The position numbers and the translations under genes were made by a program. Below, piece after piece: positions 4,490 to 61,040 of a DNA stretch of 64,000 bases. How positions within the stretch are numbered: position 1 is the stretch's first letter; each line of letters opens with the position of its first letter. Source of the DNA: Rhizophagus irregularis (lineage: Eukaryota; Glomeromycota; Glomeromycetes; Glomerales; Glomeraceae). The DNA is taken from positions 1,426,001-1,490,000 of the forward strand of contig NC_089460.1 of assembly GCF_026210795.1 (NCBI RefSeq), written 5' to 3'. Under the pieces are notes generated by a model. That model worked only from the letters and a program-made list of their open reading frames with translations, was not told the DNA's origin and ran no database searches.

Positions 4490-5890
4490 ATATATTAAAA
4501 TGTTGAAAAAGACTTTACGGTTTAAAAATAGATATTTTAAAATTAATTTTAGAAAAAAGACATTTTAAAAAGATGATTTAAAATGGATATTTTAAAATTT
4601 ATTTTAAAAAAAAAAGACATTTTAAAAAGATGATTTAAAAATGGATATTTTAAAATTTATTTTAAAAAAAGACATTTTAAAAAGATGATTTAAAATGGAC
4701 ATTTTAAATTTATTTTAAAAAAAGACATTTTAAATTTATTTTGAAAAAAGACATTTTAAAAAGATGATTTAAAAATAGATATTTTAAATTTTATTTTAAA
4801 AAAGACATTTTAAAGCCATTCTAAAAAGACGATTTAAAGCAGATATTTTAAAATCATTCTAAAAATAGATATTTTAAAGTCATTCTAAAAGTTGGTTTAA
4901 AAAAGACATTTTAAAGACATTTTAAAGACGTTTTAAAGATGTTTTAAAAGAGATATTTAAGAATATTTTAAAAGTTGTTTCAAAAGACGCTTTAAAAAAG
5001 ATATTTTATTTTAAAAGACGGGTCAAAAGGTATTTTAAAGACACTCTAAAAAAAACGTTTTAAAACAGATATTTTCAAGGCATTCTAAAGGATGTTTTAA
5101 AAAGATATTTTAAAGACATATTTCAAGAGATATTTCAAAAGACGTTTCAAAAGACGTTTCAAAAGACGTTTCAAAAGACGTTTTAAAAGACGTTTTAAAA
5201 AGATATTTTTAGAGACAAAAGACATTTTAAAGAGACATTAGAGACATTATAGATGACACTTAAAAGTAAAAAAAGACGTTGCAAAATGACAATTGTAAAA
5301 AAGAAAGACATTTTAAAGAAGAAATTGTAAAGTAGAACCTGTAAAATAGAAATTGTAAAGAAATTGTAAAATATAAAATTTAAAAAAAGTGGATATTTTA
5401 AGAAGACTTTATCATAAAAATATTTTAGAAAAGACATTATAAATTTATAATAAAGATATTTAAAATTATTATAATAAAGATATTTTAAAAATTATTACAA
5501 TAAAGATATTTTATAATAAAGATACAGTCAGACCTCTATAATTGCACTCTCCATAATTGCACCCACTATGTATACCCTCTCTAAATGCACCCTCTGGTTC
5601 GGTCCCAAGCTTATATGATCTCTAATTATTTTACCTCTATAAATGCACACTCTCTTTAAATGCACTATTTTGAAAATTATGCATATGGTCCCAAGGGGTG
5701 TACAATTATGGAGGTCTGACTGTATTTTAAAAATTATTATAATAAAGATATTTTAAAATGACATTATAATAAAGATATTTTATAAAAATTATTATAATAA
5801 AGATATTTTAAAATGACATTATAATTAAGTTATTTTAACAAGACATCATAATAAAGATATTTAGAAAAGACATTAAAGGAGATGTTTAAA
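4490..5890. repeat. Degenerate GACATTTTAAA / GATATTTTAAA array
   Basis: About 1.4 kb built from short, diverged units such as GACATTTTAAAAAGATGATTT and GATATTTTAAAATT, later drifting to GACGTTTCAAAA and then to AATAAAGATATTTTA. A clean TA-flanked MITE (5525-5722) interrupts the right part, and the array resumes on both sides with the same ATAAAGATATTTT motif. Both strands are littered with stops, so it is non-coding satellite-like DNA. Confidence 0.75.
5525..5722. mobile_element. 198-bp Tigger/pogo-type MITE
   Basis: The terminal inverted repeats start CAGTCAGACCTCTATAATTG on the left and read inward as CAGTCAGACCTCCATAATTG on the right. TA dinucleotides flank both ends (5523-5524 and 5723-5724), as expected for TA-targeting Tc1/mariner-pogo elements. 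There is no coding capacity, so it is non-autonomous. It sits inside the degenerate tandem array, which marks it as the younger event. Confidence 0.8.
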
Positions 5891-47412: not shown

Positions 47413-48665
47413 ATGAAAGAGCAAGTGAAAGAGCTAGAGAAAGAGCTAGAGAAAGAGCAAGTGAAAGAGTTAGAGAAAGAGCAAGTGAAAGAGCTAGAGA
47501 AAGAATTGTATGGTAAAGAGTGCGTTGCCGAAAGTATCGACTTTGCTGTCGATGGAGTAAGTGAAGATCTTGATGACATAACTGTTGAAGAGGAACTTTC
47601 CTGTGACTTAGCAAAAATATTTACAAGGAATAAAGAAGTAGTTGCAGTGATGTTGGAAACTTTATCCAATGGCTATATAATTTACCTTTCGAAAAACACT
47701 GCTTGGCTTGAGAACGATAATAAATATGTTAATAATATTACTTGTTATTTGAAAACTATATCGACAAATGCTCCCAAGAGATTAGTCAGTGTTGAGACAG
47801 CTTTTGTCAAAGAAGTGGTGTCATATTGTTCTGCTAAACTTGAGTCTATATTTGAAAAGCTTAAAAATGATCTTAAAACCACTGATGATGATAATTATAT
47901 TAGACACATTAAATCTTTCAAAGATTTTATTTTAGCTAAGGATTATGATATGGATATGCACCAATTATCCAAAATTTGTTATGAGTATTATAATATAGTT
48001 AAAGATGATTCTAGCATTCCCCCAAAATTTTTAGGGCATATTAATAAGGCGGGATCTTATATTGAATCTATGTTAAGTATCACAAGATGTGTACGTAATA
48101 AAAAGTATAAATCACAATTCTCTAATGTGATAATGTATAAAGGGGTACCTGATATTATAAAAGATCAGCCTATATATTCGTGGAAAAATATTATCAAAAG
48201 GTTTACTGATGATTATAAAGTTTTCATGGATAATTGTTCGAAAAAGTCTGAAATAATGGAAAGAATAAGAAAAGTATATAACGACAAAGATACACAGCAA
48301 CATCAACTGCTCGACAGCGATGATGTTAAACAACGCATATACTTACATCCGGCAATGACAATATCGGCCTATATTATAAACAATAATATTAAAAAAAAAG
48401 GGTGTTTATAGCAGTATCTAAAAGTTGTTGTTACTTATGTGAACTGTATACTGATTTTGCACATGATGAAGGATATAATATCATCATCTCTAGATGCAAC
48501 AATAAAATATATAGTGGATGGAAACTTCCGGATGTAAAGGATAACGACTTCAAGATCAATTCCCTGAAATATATACTAAGAGATCTTGATCGAATCATAC
48601 AGCACGGTATAGATCACTATACTAGTAATTTGAATTCAGATGATGATGATTATTATTATGAATGA
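47413..48665 (+). pseudogene. OTT_1508-like deaminase, catalytic Glu lost and frameshifted
   Basis: An intronless frame (47413-48411) is interrupted at a run of nine A (48391-48399) and continues in another frame to 48665. The first ~33 residues are perfect K-E-[QL]-[VE] quartets from a 12-bp repeat. Residues ~35-300 form an uncharacterised, mostly helical region. The C-terminal domain has the block order of OTT_1508-like deaminases: an H-x-E position, a VFIAVSKSCCYLC strand with the zinc-binding Cys pair, and KIYSGWKLP. At the H-x-E site this copy reads LHPAM (His codon 48346-48348), so the catalytic Glu is Ala. Family members deaminate nucleic-acid or nucleotide bases in bacterial conflict systems; fungal roles are unknown. 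Loss of Glu and the frameshift predict an inactive product, although a sequencing error in the A run is possible. Confidence 0.75.
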
Positions 48666-56181: not shown

Positions 56182-56590
56182 AATGTTTTCATTTTAGCTA
56201 TTACTTTCATTAATATTTGAACGTAAAACACTATTTTTTCGCTAATATTGAACATAAACACCTTTTTTTTCATTAATATCGAATGTAAATTACAGTCAAC
56301 TCCCTCTATAGTTACTCCCGTTATAGTCACATTCTACTATATAGTCATACCAGTTGAATGTTCAAAACACTTTATTATTAAAATCTATCCTATATAGTCA
56401 CAATCTATCTATAGTCACTACTCACTATCACACCTATCCTCAAAAATCTTATATTAAAAAGAACCGTTTATAATCGCAGTTATATAAAAAATATATTAAA
56501 TAACATCTAATAATCGTACAACGATGTATCAGAGCTTGTTAGAATCGTCTCACTGAGACGAATCGAATGGTGGTAGTTTTATCCTTTTCC

Positions 56591-57560
56591 TTTGCTATTG
56601 TTTACGGCCAGACCACCCATTGCCTCTTATGAGACTAATCTCGGGTCTGTGTCCTATCATCTTCAATAGGCAACCATTAAACCGAGTACTTAATTCCTCA
56701 GGTAACAGCACCATGTGAAGACATCCCCCATCGAGCCATTTTAGGCTGATCTGAAGCTAGGTACACGCCGCCTACTCATCCTTAATCCATTGCATGATAC
56801 TGGTACTCAATTTATTTTACGACCTTTAGAGAGCACCTACTTTCATGGAGGACTTTCGACAGGTAACATCAACCATCTAAGCACCTTTCCATACCACCAT
56901 TTTAGGTACGAGGTCTCACTCAAAGGCCACTACAGCCCGCGATTACCTAGCACTGATAGTACAGTTGTTTACCCCAAGTGGTATACTTATGTAGTGACCA
57001 CTCGGACAGGAAGTAGCAGGCTTCTGTCCAGGATCGCTTTATGGTGGGTATACGACACGGGGATCGCCAACGGGACTAAGAAGTGGGGGAATCGGAACAT
57101 AACCATGCTACCTGTTCTGTGCACGAACACCTTGGTTGGCCTAAGACCTAACAGAAGGTCTAACTACCACTAAGACATTGCACCCTCAGCTTTACCATCT
57201 AGGACGACCATCTAGCAATTACTGTGCAGTGGTATCGTGGAGTGACCCGCCCAGACGGAAGTCCCCCCAAGGTATAGTAGTGACCTCAAGGACAGGACTG
57301 CGCACATGCCAATGGCCTCATAGGGAACGTTAGAAGGACACCATGACCCTTAGTTGAAATGTGCGGCCTAACTGTACACACTAATTCACCATGATGCAGT
57401 CCAACTACACTAATTCCTGTATTTTCACGCTATTGGTTGTAGCGTCCGCAGTAAAATTCTTTTTATTTCCGTGGTCATGGGAATCGAACCTGCGACCTCA
57501 CCATACTCAGGCTTAATGAGGGTCTCAGTGACTAACCACCGAGATAGGGTGACCAACCCT
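56591..57560 (-). mobile_element. SINE-like retroelement with tRNA head, full copy
   Basis: A 970-bp, comparatively GC-rich segment lies between two exact copies of GTTTTATCCTTTTCC (56576-56590 and 57561-57575), read as target-site duplications. Its 5' end on the minus strand is an 84-nt tRNA-like sequence (57472-57555). The body is non-coding and is shared with the truncated copy at 57576-57891 and, in the opposite orientation, with 59344-59906. The open frame at 56790-57173 is incidental. Non-autonomous retrotransposition by a LINE enzyme is inferred. Confidence 0.65.
57472..57555 (-). other. tRNA-Leu(AAG)-like SINE head
   Basis: The minus strand has terminal TGGTC/GACCA pairing, a D-arm TCTC..GAGA around GGTGGTTAGTCA (A-box-like), an anticodon arm CTCA-TTAAGCC-TGAG with AAG in anticodon position, an extended variable region as in class II tRNAs, and an exact B-box GGTTCGATTCCC. 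Total length of 84 nt fits tRNA-Leu. The T-stem is largely unpaired and the acceptor stem is short, so this is a decayed pol III promoter head, not a working tRNA. Confidence 0.6.
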
Positions 57561-57575
57561 GTTTTATCCTTTTCC

Positions 57576-57891
57576 TTTGCAAGTGTTTACGGCCAGTACC
57601 ACCCATCGCTCTTAGAGACTAATCTCGGGTGCGTCTCCTATCATCTTCAATGGGCAACCATTATACCGAGTACTTAATTCCTCAAGTAACAGCACCACTA
57701 TAGAAGACATCTCCTATCGGGCCATTTTAGGCTGATCTGAAGCTAGGTACACGCCGCCTACTCATCCTATACCCATTGTACGAGACATCGATACTCAATT
57801 TATTTAACGACCTTTAGAGAGCATCTACTTTCATGGAGGACTTTCGACAGGTAACATCAACCATCTAGTACCCTTCCATACTACCATTTTT
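57576..57891 (-). mobile_element. 5'-truncated second SINE-like copy
   Basis: 316 bp collinear with 56591-56906 (the 3' third of the full copy), for example TGTTTACGGCCAG and GGCTGATCTGAAGCTAGG. It has no tRNA head, so on the minus strand it is 5'-truncated. It is flanked by GTTTTATCCTTTTCC at 57561-57575 and 57892-57906. Truncation from the 5' side is characteristic of target-primed reverse transcription. Confidence 0.65.
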
Positions 57892-57906
57892 GTTTTATCC
57901 TTTTCC

Positions 57907-58459
57907 TGTGCAAACAGTCTTATGACTTTATTTTTTATTTATACTTTGAACTTCGAAAAATAATCGAACAATATTACAAAAATAAGAAAATAAACTAATA
58001 AAAAATAAAAAGAGTAGCTTCACGACTCATACAAGTAAAGAAATCTAAACTAAAATAAAATTAAAGCAAAGAAAAACTGAACTATTACAGAATCGCATAC
58101 CCCAACTTTACCCGAAGGCCAGTGTGAGTCAACTATCCAACATCCAAAAATCTAATCCGTTACCAGAAAGAAATCCTAAGAGGTTGAACTGTTAAGCGGC
58201 GCAGAAAATCCAAGTGCGAGATCCAAGATCCACCCCGAATTATAGAAGAGGATATCCAAGAAATCCAGGAATCCTGAGAAACTGACGCCAAAGAAGAGTT
58301 GTGTTGTTGTGGAGTAGTATTAGGGAAAGAATTTGTAGATGGGCCACGTAATTTGGAAGCAGCCGAGATACCCTGCGACTCCTCCCAAGCATGGAAAAGA
58401 ACATTCCGACACAGCCAAATTTCACCATATAATTCGACTTGGAAGTCATTAAGAAGGGG
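57907..58459 (-). mobile_element. 5'-truncated LINE-like 3' end
   Basis: 553 bp between GTTTTATCCTTTTCC copies at 57892-57906 and 58460-58474. The minus strand starts with an open segment translating as LLNDFQVELYGEIWLCRNVL and, further on, SWISWISSSIIRGGSWISHL, a C-terminal style seen in fungal non-LTR retrotransposon ORFs. It then enters a 3' UTR ending AAGTCATAAGACTGTTTGC. The same UTR occurs in plus orientation at 59101-59328. Assignment to a LINE family is from these features, not from a search. Confidence 0.6.
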
Positions 58460-58604
58460 GTTTTATCCTTTTCCGATCACTGGCTGATGAGTTATTCAAC
58501 AAAATGTTAAACATCGGCATTATAATATTTCTTGATTTACGTTTACTGTGCCATTTAACATTTTGCTAGATTTCTCGGTACCTAGTGATTGTAAAAAGAC
58601 GATT

Positions 58605-58990
58605 TATAGCTCGTTGGAATCGCCTCATCGAGACGAATCGAATGGTGGTAAGCTCATCTCTCTGTGATCAATATTGACGGAGTTATTACTTAAAAACCAT
58701 TTAATATTTTTTAATTTCGGAAATTGATCTAGTGATTGGATTTCGATGTATCTTATACCATTAGATTCGTCTCATCAAGACGAATCGAATGGTAGTAAGA
58801 TCGTCTTTCTAGGATCAATATTGGCAGAGTTATTACACAAAAACCATTAATATTTTTTTAATTTCGGAAATTAATCTAGTGATTGGATTTCGACGTATTT
58901 TATACCATTAGAACCGTCTCATCAAGACGAATCGAATGGCGGTAAGATCATCTCTCTACGATTAATATTGGCGAAGTTACGATACAATAA
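58605..58990. repeat. 147-bp tandem repeat (about 2.6 units)
   Basis: The motif GACGAATCGAATGG recurs at exactly 147-bp steps (GAATCG at 58635, 58782, 58929). Each unit holds a small palindrome (GATTCGTCTCATCAAGACGAATC type), ATCAATATTGGCAGAGTTA and TTTCGGAAATT. A further unit at 56535-56575 continues at 58475 once the retroelement array is removed, so array 1 inserted into a member of this repeat. Confidence 0.75.
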
Positions 58991-59100
58991 AGTTTTAAGT
59001 ATAATTCTGGCTAAAATTATGTTGATTTTTGGCCGGAATTATGATATACAAATATAAGAAATTTTTTATATAGTCACATCTCTTTATAATCACCAAATAT

Positions 59101-59328
59101 TGGCCTTCGGGTAAAGTTGGGGTATGCGAATTCTGTAATAGTTTAGTTTTTCTTTACTTAATTTTATTTTGTTTAGATTTCTTTACTTGTATGAATCGTG
59201 AAGCTAGTTCTTTTTATTTTTTATGTTTATTTTCTATATTTGATATTTGTAATATTGTTCGATTTGTTCTTTGTACTTTTCGTTTAAAAATTTAATAATA
59301 AAAGATAAAGTCATAAGACTGTTTGCTC
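59101..59328 (+). mobile_element. Short 5'-truncated LINE-like 3' end
   Basis: 228 bp matching, in inverse orientation, the 3' UTR of the copy at 57907-58459 (GGCCTTCGGGTAAAGTTGGG to AAGTCATAAGACTGTTTGC). It is flanked by exact ATAATCACCAAATAT repeats at 59086-59100 and 59329-59343, read as target-site duplications. It contains UTR only, so it is a very short 5'-truncated insertion. Confidence 0.65.
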
Positions 59329-59343
59329 ATAATCACCAAATAT

Positions 59344-59906
59344 GCACAGACAGATAGCTTGGTGATTGGGTTCGATTCCCTTCTCTGATGGGCCCTGGTT
59401 GGTGATTCCTGGTGGTTGATACCCACCATAAGGGATGATCCTGGGTAACACCTACAAGCTTACTGTTCAGGTGGTCACTACAAAGTATACCACTTGGAGA
59501 TTACAACTGTACTATCGGTGGTGGGTAATCGCGGGCTGTAGTGGCCTTGGAGTGAGACCTAGTACCTAATATGGTGGTATGGAAGGGGTCTAGATGTTTG
59601 AAAGTTATCTGGCGAAAGTCCTCCGTGACAGTAGTAGTGGTGAGGGGTTTATAATAGTAGCCATTACAGTATCGTACAACGGATTAAAGGACGAGTAGGG
59701 TGGTGTTCAGCAGATTCGAAGGCCTTCGGGTCACTTGGGATAAGTCCTTGCGTTCTGGTTGTGGTGTTGAATTGTCCCTGTTAAAAGGTGGCAGGGATGG
59801 TTACATCATGGCTTAGTGAGGATGATGCAATGAACGACCTACCTCCATAGCCTTCAATAGAGGGTGCGGAAAGTAGTGGCCACTAAACTTACAAAACACT
59901 TGTAAA
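59344..59906 (+). mobile_element. SINE-like retroelement, diverged copy
   Basis: 563 bp between ATAATCACCAAATAT copies at 59329-59343 and 59907-59921. It starts with a collapsed tRNA-like head, TAGCTTGGTGATTGG immediately followed by the B-box GGTTCGATTCCC, with the anticodon region missing. The body aligns in inverse orientation with the copy at 56591-57560 (for example TACAACTGTACTATCGG, GCGGGCTGTAGTGGCC, GAAAGTCCTCC) but is clearly more diverged. Confidence 0.6.
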
Positions 59907-59978
59907 ATAATCACCAAATATGGACTGTCCCAAATGTGTGACTATAAAGAGAGTTGACTGTACTTTATTTACTACTTT

Positions 59979-61040
59979 ATGGAAAATATGGAAGAAGAGT
60001 CTAGCGAAGACACTCAAACCTTGGAATTTACACATGGTACGTATAGCTTAGGGTTAGGGTTAGGGTTAGGGTATGTTGGATTAGGGTTTGGATTAGGGTT
60101 TGGATTAGGATTAGGGTTAGATTAGGGTTAGATTAGGATAGTGGGTTAGTGTTAGTAATGTGAACTTTATAATTTACTAATTATTTATTTATTTTTTTTT
60201 AGATGATTGCAATAATATAGGTAATGAAATGATCTTGTCTAATGAGAATCACCATACATTATTGTATTCAGGAAGGAAGTATGAATCATGGGAAGCTTGT
60301 GAAAATTTTATTATCATGTGGGCCAAGCAGCAGGGCTTTCAGATTATTAAGGATCGTGTAGTACGTTTGGAAAGTATCATTTGTCGTCGCACATATATAT
60401 GTTTTCACAGACGTACCTATGAATCAAATTTTACTAAGACACTATTACAAAAAAAATTGGTTGTCCGTTTGTTGTCATCCTTCTCAATGGTATGATGACA
60501 ACAAAGATGTTAAAAAAGCTATGCAAGAAATGTTTTTAGTTGCTGACAAATTTATACAGGAAAATATCACTTATAAATATGATGGATTTTCCGATTCTAA
60601 TATGACTTTATGTTTATTTAATCAATACAATAATGAGTTTTGTGAAGATAGACTAACAATTATGGAACAGAAACTCATCTATAGAAAATTACATAGAATG
60701 TATAAAAAAGCGTTAAACAAAGCTTTAGGATCTAATTCTAAATTAGAACAGCTTATCAATCTGTTACAAGAATTCACAGAAGATGGGGAATCAGATTTCG
60801 AAGAGTTAAATGAAATTAATGAAACTAATCCAGAGGATGAAATAATTGATAAAGAAAATGTTGATCCTTTAACGCCAATATTGCGAAATCCGAAGAAAAG
60901 AAGTGGTAAAGGACGACCATTGGGTACTAAAAGGTTTAAGTCATCCACTGAGACTCCTAAACCTAAGTCAAGAAACTAACGAAATTGCAGAAAATGTGGG
61001 AAGGTTGGCCACTATCAAAAAAAATTGCAAGGTACTATAT
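59979..61040 (+). pseudogene. MULE/FAR1-type transposase remnant
   Basis: Exon 1 (59979-60036) splices in frame to 60203 across a GTACGT..TTTAG intron. Exon 2 encodes a FAR1-like DNA-binding segment (YESWEACENFIIMWAKQQGF, RRTYICFH). The frame breaks in an A run near 60447-60454, just before the conserved zinc-ligand region. A second frame (60443-60979) carries the tail: the KKAMQEMFLVADKFIQE region, an acidic linker, a basic KKRSGKGRPLGTKRFK stretch, then after a TAA (60977-60979) a C-x2-C-x4-H zinc-knuckle half (CRKCGKVGH) that is itself frameshifted. The MULE catalytic domain between FAR1 and tail is missing, so it is an internally deleted, inactive derivative. Confidence 0.7.
60047..60155 (+). 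repeat. Interstitial telomere-like TTAGGG repeat
   Basis: Four perfect tandem TTAGGG units (about 60049-60072) are followed by degenerate units (TTAGGGTTTGGA, TTAGGATTAGGG, TTAGATTAGGG) over about 80 more bases. TTAGGG is the telomere repeat of most filamentous fungi. The block occupies most of the first intron of the MULE remnant. Confidence 0.9.

Follow-up and report, generated by a model that had tools for sequence, protein, structure and literature searches.

The retroelement arrays in this part of the Rhizophagus irregularis genome lie at fixed sites within a multicopy DNA transposon, and judging from their junctions it is very probable that LINE and SINE copies were stacked there by serial insertion into a target regenerated each time. 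The window, here and below, is the whole stretch of DNA that was analysed, 64,000 nucleotides in length. An earlier note on this DNA had named serial re-use of a regenerated target as one of two explanations, and this part of it is strongly supported by empty sites, by full 15-bp target copies at the junctions, by the occurrence of all order combinations of LINE and SINE, and by one array in which all seven target copies recovered have the same base change.

Two arrays in a single host transposon

Three exact copies of ATAATCACCAAATAT (site B) bound a LINE 3' end and then a SINE-like fragment on the plus strand, as the earlier note had described, and the window holds no other exact copy (Table 1). 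The same LINE-then-SINE order in element orientation, also claimed for the first array, is present there on the minus strand, where the array reads LINE, SINE and then a second SINE. The two arrays that the note called independent do not lie at unrelated targets, however. The host transposon spans both, and therefore both lie in a single host copy, at two of its sites.

Table 1. Features of the two arrays and their host in the window
Feature	Position	Strand	Remarks
Host, mariner-like miniature transposon by its ends, CAGTCAACTC...GAGTTGACTG	56293..59960	+	TA on both sides; interrupted by the two retroelement arrays
Site A target copy 4	56576..56590	-	GGAAAAGGATAAAAC in element orientation; adjoins host
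SINE-A	56591..57560	-	near full-length, 970 bp
Site A target copy 3	57561..57575	-	
SINE-A fragment	57576..57891	-	5' truncated, 316 bp
Site A target copy 2	57892..57906	-	
LINE-A fragment	57907..58459	-	5' truncated, 553 bp, end ...GACTGTTTGCACA
Site A target copy 1	58460..58474	-	adjoins host; 626 bp before site B
147-bp repeat, 3 copies	58582..59022	+	repeat scan; internal part of host, between sites
Third site A2	58591..58605	+	GTAAAAAGACGATTT; empty in the window copy, A-type elements there elsewhere; 495 bp before B
Site B target copy 1	59086..59100	+	adjoins host left flank
LINE-B 3' end	59101..59328	+	228 bp, inside 3' untranslated region
Site B target copy 2	59329..59343	+	LINE-B/SINE-B junction
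SINE-B fragment	59344..59906	+	563 bp, 5' truncated; 89.6% match with positions 444-1004 in a 1004-bp relative
Site B target copy 3	59907..59921	+	adjoins host right flank

Without the two arrays the host is 963 bp long, and this array-free sequence matches uninterrupted copies in five other loci (L024, L038, L039, L040 and L043) at 96.5-97.3% in whole-length alignment. It has terminal inverted repeats with CAGTCAACTCYCTYTATAG at both ends, and TA adjoins 9/9 left and 13/13 right ends among those listed. By these TA flanks and inverted ends we judge the host to be a mariner-like miniature transposon, and from its length it is taken as non-autonomous. The motifs of sites A and B stand about 626 bp apart at many of the genome places listed, as they do in the window, which indicates that both are part of one repeated unit. 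About 80 bp past the right end of the host (60044-60149 of the window), inside the contig, there is a degenerate, telomere-like internal TTAGGG array, and further on (60200-61000) come interrupted reading-frame remnants which, by eye, we take to resemble a DNA-binding domain of the FAR1/MULE type. Elsewhere the window has AT-rich tandem arrays of AAAAGACATTTT-like units with periods of 12 to 80 (4521-5875) and a 332-aa open frame that starts with a GAAAGAGCTAGA repeat of 7.5 copies of 12 bp (47413-48411).

Target sites in the genome

The genome (146.7 Mb in 32 contigs) was scanned for exact matches. Site B occurred 646 times (345 + 301) against once for a reversed control pattern, and the motif of the first array, GTTTTATCCTTTTCC (site A), 503 times (268 + 235) against none, so chance is excluded. 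Site B preceded by the left host flank gave 404 exact matches, and the empty site, with host on both sides and nothing between, gave 288; the difference leaves about 116 copies of the site that are occupied or have an altered right flank, and these as well as the empty sites are distributed over the contigs. For the empty site A 68 matches were obtained with a loose pattern, two of which (C29:1940052 and C31:1199516) are LINE ends.

The elements at these sites belong to two LINE/SINE pairs, A-type and B-type. There were 177 exact B-type LINE or SINE 3' ends at site B, about 1.5 per occupied or altered site, and no A-type end at site B anywhere in the genome, while 230 A-type ends were found at site A. 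Seven B-type-like ends also stood at site A, but six of these are TTTGYAC, by eye the LINE-A end without its last A, and the remaining one (TTGTAAA, SINE-like, C25:1135395) is ambiguous. Within the 100 listed of the 177 ends at site B, one LINE end (TTTGCAC, C17:3910610) is ambiguous too. The pairs therefore hold separate sites in nearly all, possibly all, of the counted copies, and clear cross-use of sites between them was not found among the ends counted or listed.

The 3' ends of the elements were also searched for without naming any target, with the SINE-B list read by eye. An A-, A2- or B-like site adjoined all 100 LINE ends listed of 200 found, 65/65 SINE-B ends, and all 100 SINE-A ends listed of 234 found. 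Among these LINE ends, three were scored poorly by the script owing to extra bases at the junction; one of them (C4:5645016) runs into an exact site B that the genome scan for this site lists as well, and the other two, by eye, into A-like sequence. Insertion is thus strictly at one sequence, with the A-type elements using two related sites, A and A2.

The third site has the form GTAAAAAGACGATT(A/T) on the opposite strand from site A, and it hosts A-type SINEs and a LINE-A. It was the nearest site for 9/100 listed SINE-A ends and for 1/100 listed LINE ends, these being A-type ends. In one locus (L052) two SINE-A stand in tandem between the host flanks and each of the three junctions has the 15-mer, and at another (L058) the right junction of a LINE-A at A2 could be read. 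An imperfect inverted repeat of the host overlaps site A with one arm and A2 with the other; the two sites face each other, and in most copies seen they have AGTGATY|GKAAAARGA in common across the insertion point, which suggests that this is the sequence that the A-type endonuclease would read. Of the SINE-A copies listed, the 20 at GTAAAA-type targets (A2 included, and also those in L052) all end in CACTAGCAAA, and at GGAAAAGGATAAAAC targets three further 3' variants occur besides this ending; the subfamilies of host and SINE may have turned over in step with each other.

The LINE and SINE families

The full length of LINE-B, which lies at site B on the plus strand of the window, is about 8.0 kb, and that of LINE-A, at site A on the minus strand, about 7.84 kb. 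Copies of LINE-B range from 31 to 8009 bp and end in TTTGCTC (TTTGCTT in the shortest), and in LINEs and SINEs alike the 5' truncation falls at many different points and the 3' ends are nearly constant. According to Pfam, both LINE families have an ORF1 with RRM and an ORF2 with endonuclease, reverse transcriptase (RT) and RNase H, and copies with long uninterrupted reading frames are present. In one LINE-B copy (L047) the Exo_endo_phos match (E 5.7e-11) and the RT match (E 1.6e-13) lie in one frame, and likewise in L016, while the LINE-A domains come from different copies, L030 for the endonuclease and L029 for the RT and the other domains. These elements accordingly have the features of LINEs of the apurinic-endonuclease type, namely endonuclease and RT in one ORF (in LINE-B), a constant 3' end, variable 5' truncation and a target duplication. 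Among PDB sequences only L1 ORF2p and R2 proteins matched the LINE, and the endonuclease domain alone had no convincing match there.

Judged by their proteins, LINE-A and LINE-B are sisters. Four LINE-A copies compared with L047 have 78-80% protein identity in the RT and 68-70% in the endonuclease; the linker has 53-64%, RNase H 53-58% and the remaining C-terminal half 53-57%, and four other LINE-B copies have 76-95% over the same domains. The 3' untranslated regions of the two families, one copy each, are identical at 213/246 positions (87%) although no clear exchange of sites was seen, which leaves 3' recognition as no obvious basis for the choice of partner. Site A also holds elements of about 3.2 kb (L034 2224-5452 and L035 1309-4475, in coordinates of the reverse-complemented loci) that have LINE-A-like first few dozen bases and the LINE-A 3' end, and these are possibly internally deleted, non-autonomous LINE-A, comparable to SIDEs.

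SINE-B is about 1.0 kb and SINE-A about 0.98 kb at full length. They have the short length, constant 3' end and 5' truncation of SINEs, and their non-autonomy is judged by length. The B-box motif GGTTCGATTCC is found at positions 71-72 and again at 469, but the tRNA head that the earlier note had assumed was not confirmed, as neither the window nor eight loci yielded a tRNA with ARAGORN, and Rfam gave no tRNA match in four loci, nor in the window at gathering level. The one Rfam match in those four loci (snoCD11, E 0.43, under the gathering score) was taken as chance. No tail common to SINE and LINE of the kind that defines stringent-type SINEs was found, with matches of only 11-13 bases at E 0.19 or worse, and a LINE-SINE partnership, in which the LINE would mobilise the SINE, is suggested by the common sites.

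The heads of the SINEs are common to both families and the tails are not, the opposite of what the 3' untranslated regions of the LINEs show. Between one SINE-A and one SINE-B copy 447/466 positions are identical in the first part and 131/257 in the last part, while two SINE-B copies have 410/456 and 286/294, and two SINE-A copies 446/465 and 241/260; the head is therefore closer between the families than between the two SINE-B copies. As the heads are alike, the tails unrelated and each SINE family at its own site, we tentatively consider that the tail may be an address label recognised by one LINE protein, although this is somewhat doubtful. If it were so, one SINE would have been switched from one LINE machinery to another by an exchange of heads or tails, and the small DNA transposon would be a self-regenerating landing pad for both.

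Serial insertion and alternative explanations

The most telling array lies on contig C12 (about 3,792,250 to 3,822,510), where all seven recovered target copies are ATAATCAACAAATAT, a C-to-A variant of the target. Six of them come from loci L053-L056, which cover part of the array, and one from the list of LINE ends, and the variant stands beside the left host flank, beside the right host flank, and between LINE and SINE copies. Among the listed B-type ends covering C12 there was no element junction of the usual form in this interval, and the variant was not present elsewhere among the matches listed in two of the 3'-end searches (one of them with 100 of 200 listed). A 15-mer carried by the elements would be of the usual form, and each insertion in the C12 array must consequently have copied the local target.

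These copies bear directly on whether the 15-mer is host DNA or a terminal repeat that the elements carry with them. The earlier note had counted the presence of the 15-mer at all copies of the elements, together with an absence of similar arrays in the genome, against its own reading. The 15-mer, a close variant or another host site does adjoin every element copy examined, as a carried repeat would, but it stands there as the target and not as a part of the element. The 288 exact empty sites have no element, the 15-mer beside the sister LINE and SINE at site A is another one, and in C12 the changed form extends to both host flanks; we regard an element-borne 15-mer as refuted by the empty sites and the C12 variant and give it practically no probability. 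Hardly any probability attaches to an assembly artefact either. While repeats are prone to misassembly, the empty sites and the occupied or altered ones are spread over the contigs, and the target variants are specific to arrays.

Neighbouring copies within arrays give further evidence on how the arrays grew. Three pairs of SINE-A neighbours had the same unusual target variant, more than expected from shuffling (P 0.00055). Unusual targets were present in 12 SINE-A neighbour pairs altogether, and nine of these had no exact match, although by eye the two targets are a single base apart or differ by a gap or shift of one base. Six SINE neighbour pairs were valid for comparison, a seventh SINE-A pair having been left out because L036 8040, one of 16 rows taken as SINE-A, is a LINE fragment caught by the end pattern. 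Four of the six have unequal 5' ends, those in L033 and L052 being only a few bases apart, in three the nearest relative of the upstream member is in another array, and every pair has at least one of these two signs. The C12 variant, the target variants of neighbours, the 5' ends and the nearest relatives together speak for repeated insertion rather than for one insertion multiplied by tandem duplication or unequal exchange. Such multiplication could account for L033 and L052, where some neighbours are mutually nearest in the sample (96-98%) and have 5' ends only a few bases apart, but not readily for the four pairs with different 5' ends, nor for the other two, in which the upstream member has its nearest relative in another array. 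Neighbours are also often of different families (LINE before SINE or the reverse), and 15 bp is short for homologous exchange. Tandem duplication is therefore an unlikely origin of the arrays.

The order of LINE and SINE was compared among neighbours joined by distance alone, with C17:3910610 counted as LINE despite its ambiguous end. Among the first 100 listed of the 177 ends at site B there were 12 LINE-LINE, 11 LINE-SINE, 9 SINE-SINE and 7 SINE-LINE neighbours; at least one of the LINE-LINE pairs (C1:157370/159555) is false, as the right host flank lies between its members (L041), and the LINE-SINE and SINE-LINE counts are unaffected by it. At site A, among the first 100 listed of 230, the counts were 16 SINE-SINE, 10 LINE-SINE, 3 SINE-LINE and 2 LINE-LINE. 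When shuffled within arrays, the excess of LINE-SINE over SINE-LINE had a permutation P of 0.16 at B (11 vs 7) and 0.016 at A (10 vs 3). The order LINE before SINE is thus at most a weak bias, and a fixed LINE-then-SINE logic, as the earlier note had seen in the two arrays, is not supported by these counts. The same bias, 21 against 10 over both sites, is what single-event template switching from LINE to SINE with repeated priming, the second explanation offered there, would produce, and template jumps are known in R2 (PMC3414825). Such a jump would nevertheless leave no complete 15-bp host target between the elements, whereas the complete target is found at the junctions, and LINE-LINE, SINE-SINE and SINE-LINE neighbours occur besides LINE-SINE; we consider template switching very improbable.

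It could also be that the host attracts insertions through its chromatin or structure and that the endonuclease itself is not sequence-specific. All three sites do lie in one element, and the inverted-repeat arms at A and A2 would fit a structural cue, but the elements enter at the same base with the same 15-bp duplication, and the A and B families have different sites, which makes this quite improbable.

Serial insertion into a regenerated target could work as follows. The LINE, with its apurinic-type endonuclease, RT and RNase H, would nick the bottom strand just before the 15-mer, and cDNA synthesis would be primed at this nick. The top strand would be cut 15 bp further on, so that the whole 15-mer is duplicated, and since the duplicate could again be used as a target, LINE and SINE copies would stack head-to-tail. 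By borrowing the machinery of one LINE family, the non-autonomous SINE would insert at the same site, LINE-B and SINE-B using site B and LINE-A and SINE-A using sites A and A2. The fixed target, its duplication, the empty sites, the stacking, the separate sites of the two pairs and the domains of the LINEs are seen in the sequences themselves, while the cut by this LINE's own endonuclease, the movement of the SINE by the LINE, the positions of the nicks and the choice of target copy are inferred from them. On the target copy that is re-used, same-family neighbours divided 4 to 2 in a sample where the end pattern missed many SINE-A (six kept), which favours neither copy.

Comparison with known systems

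The best-known site-specific LINEs occupy rDNA or telomeres, target arrays that themselves undergo recombination. In the present case a miniature transposon is the target, dispersed in hundreds of copies with different flanks, and each array is thus a readable record of repeated insertions. As the two sister pairs have different sites, they permit a direct test both of the part of the endonuclease that sets the target and of the part of the SINE RNA that selects its LINE. Insertions confined to another transposon may spare genes. A LINE of the apurinic-endonuclease type specific for a site in a DNA transposon was reportedly described by Christensen et al. in 2000, namely Tx1L in Tx1D of Xenopus laevis; that system is not known to have a SINE partner or a stacking of several families, and its host is not mariner-like.

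Transposons are among the targets of LINEs (PMC5035012, PMC8869645, PMC4640811), and the Tx1 and R1 clades are apurinic-endonuclease groups with target-specific members, R1 itself being a clade of apurinic-endonuclease LINEs (PMC4640811). In the 28S genes of Drosophila, tandem R1 copies are separated by the 14-bp target duplication, and these arrays have been explained by insertion into the duplicated target (PMC2718515). The arrays described here resemble them in having an apurinic-endonuclease LINE, copies stacked at one site and target duplications between the copies. They are unlike them in that the target of R1 is rDNA, with no SINE partner mentioned in the excerpts of that source, whereas the arrays here occupy three sites of a DNA transposon and involve two LINE/SINE pairs.

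The R2 and R2/R1 SIDEs of Drosophila are non-autonomous users of the R1 and R2 sites, and the R2/R1 hybrids carry the 14-bp duplication of R1 (PMC3414825). As in SIDEs, non-autonomous elements here would use the machinery and site of a site-specific LINE, which for our SINEs is what the shared sites suggest. Unlike them, since SIDEs are internally deleted R2/R1 copies with the LINE 3' end (PMC3414825), our SINEs have no detectable LINE sequence and carry B-box motifs. The transposable element library of Rhizophagus irregularis includes SINE, LINE/L1-Tx1, LINE/L1-R1, LINE/I and Tc1-Mariner families (PMC11075540); the term 'insertion site' is absent from the main text of that paper, and site specificity and transposon nesting are not mentioned in its excerpts. 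The listings of searches over open-licence PMC papers showed neither a site-specific SINE within a DNA transposon nor a LINE/SINE-pair system like the present one. A single host transposon that offers three sites to two LINE/SINE pairs makes the system more organised than the earlier note had made out.
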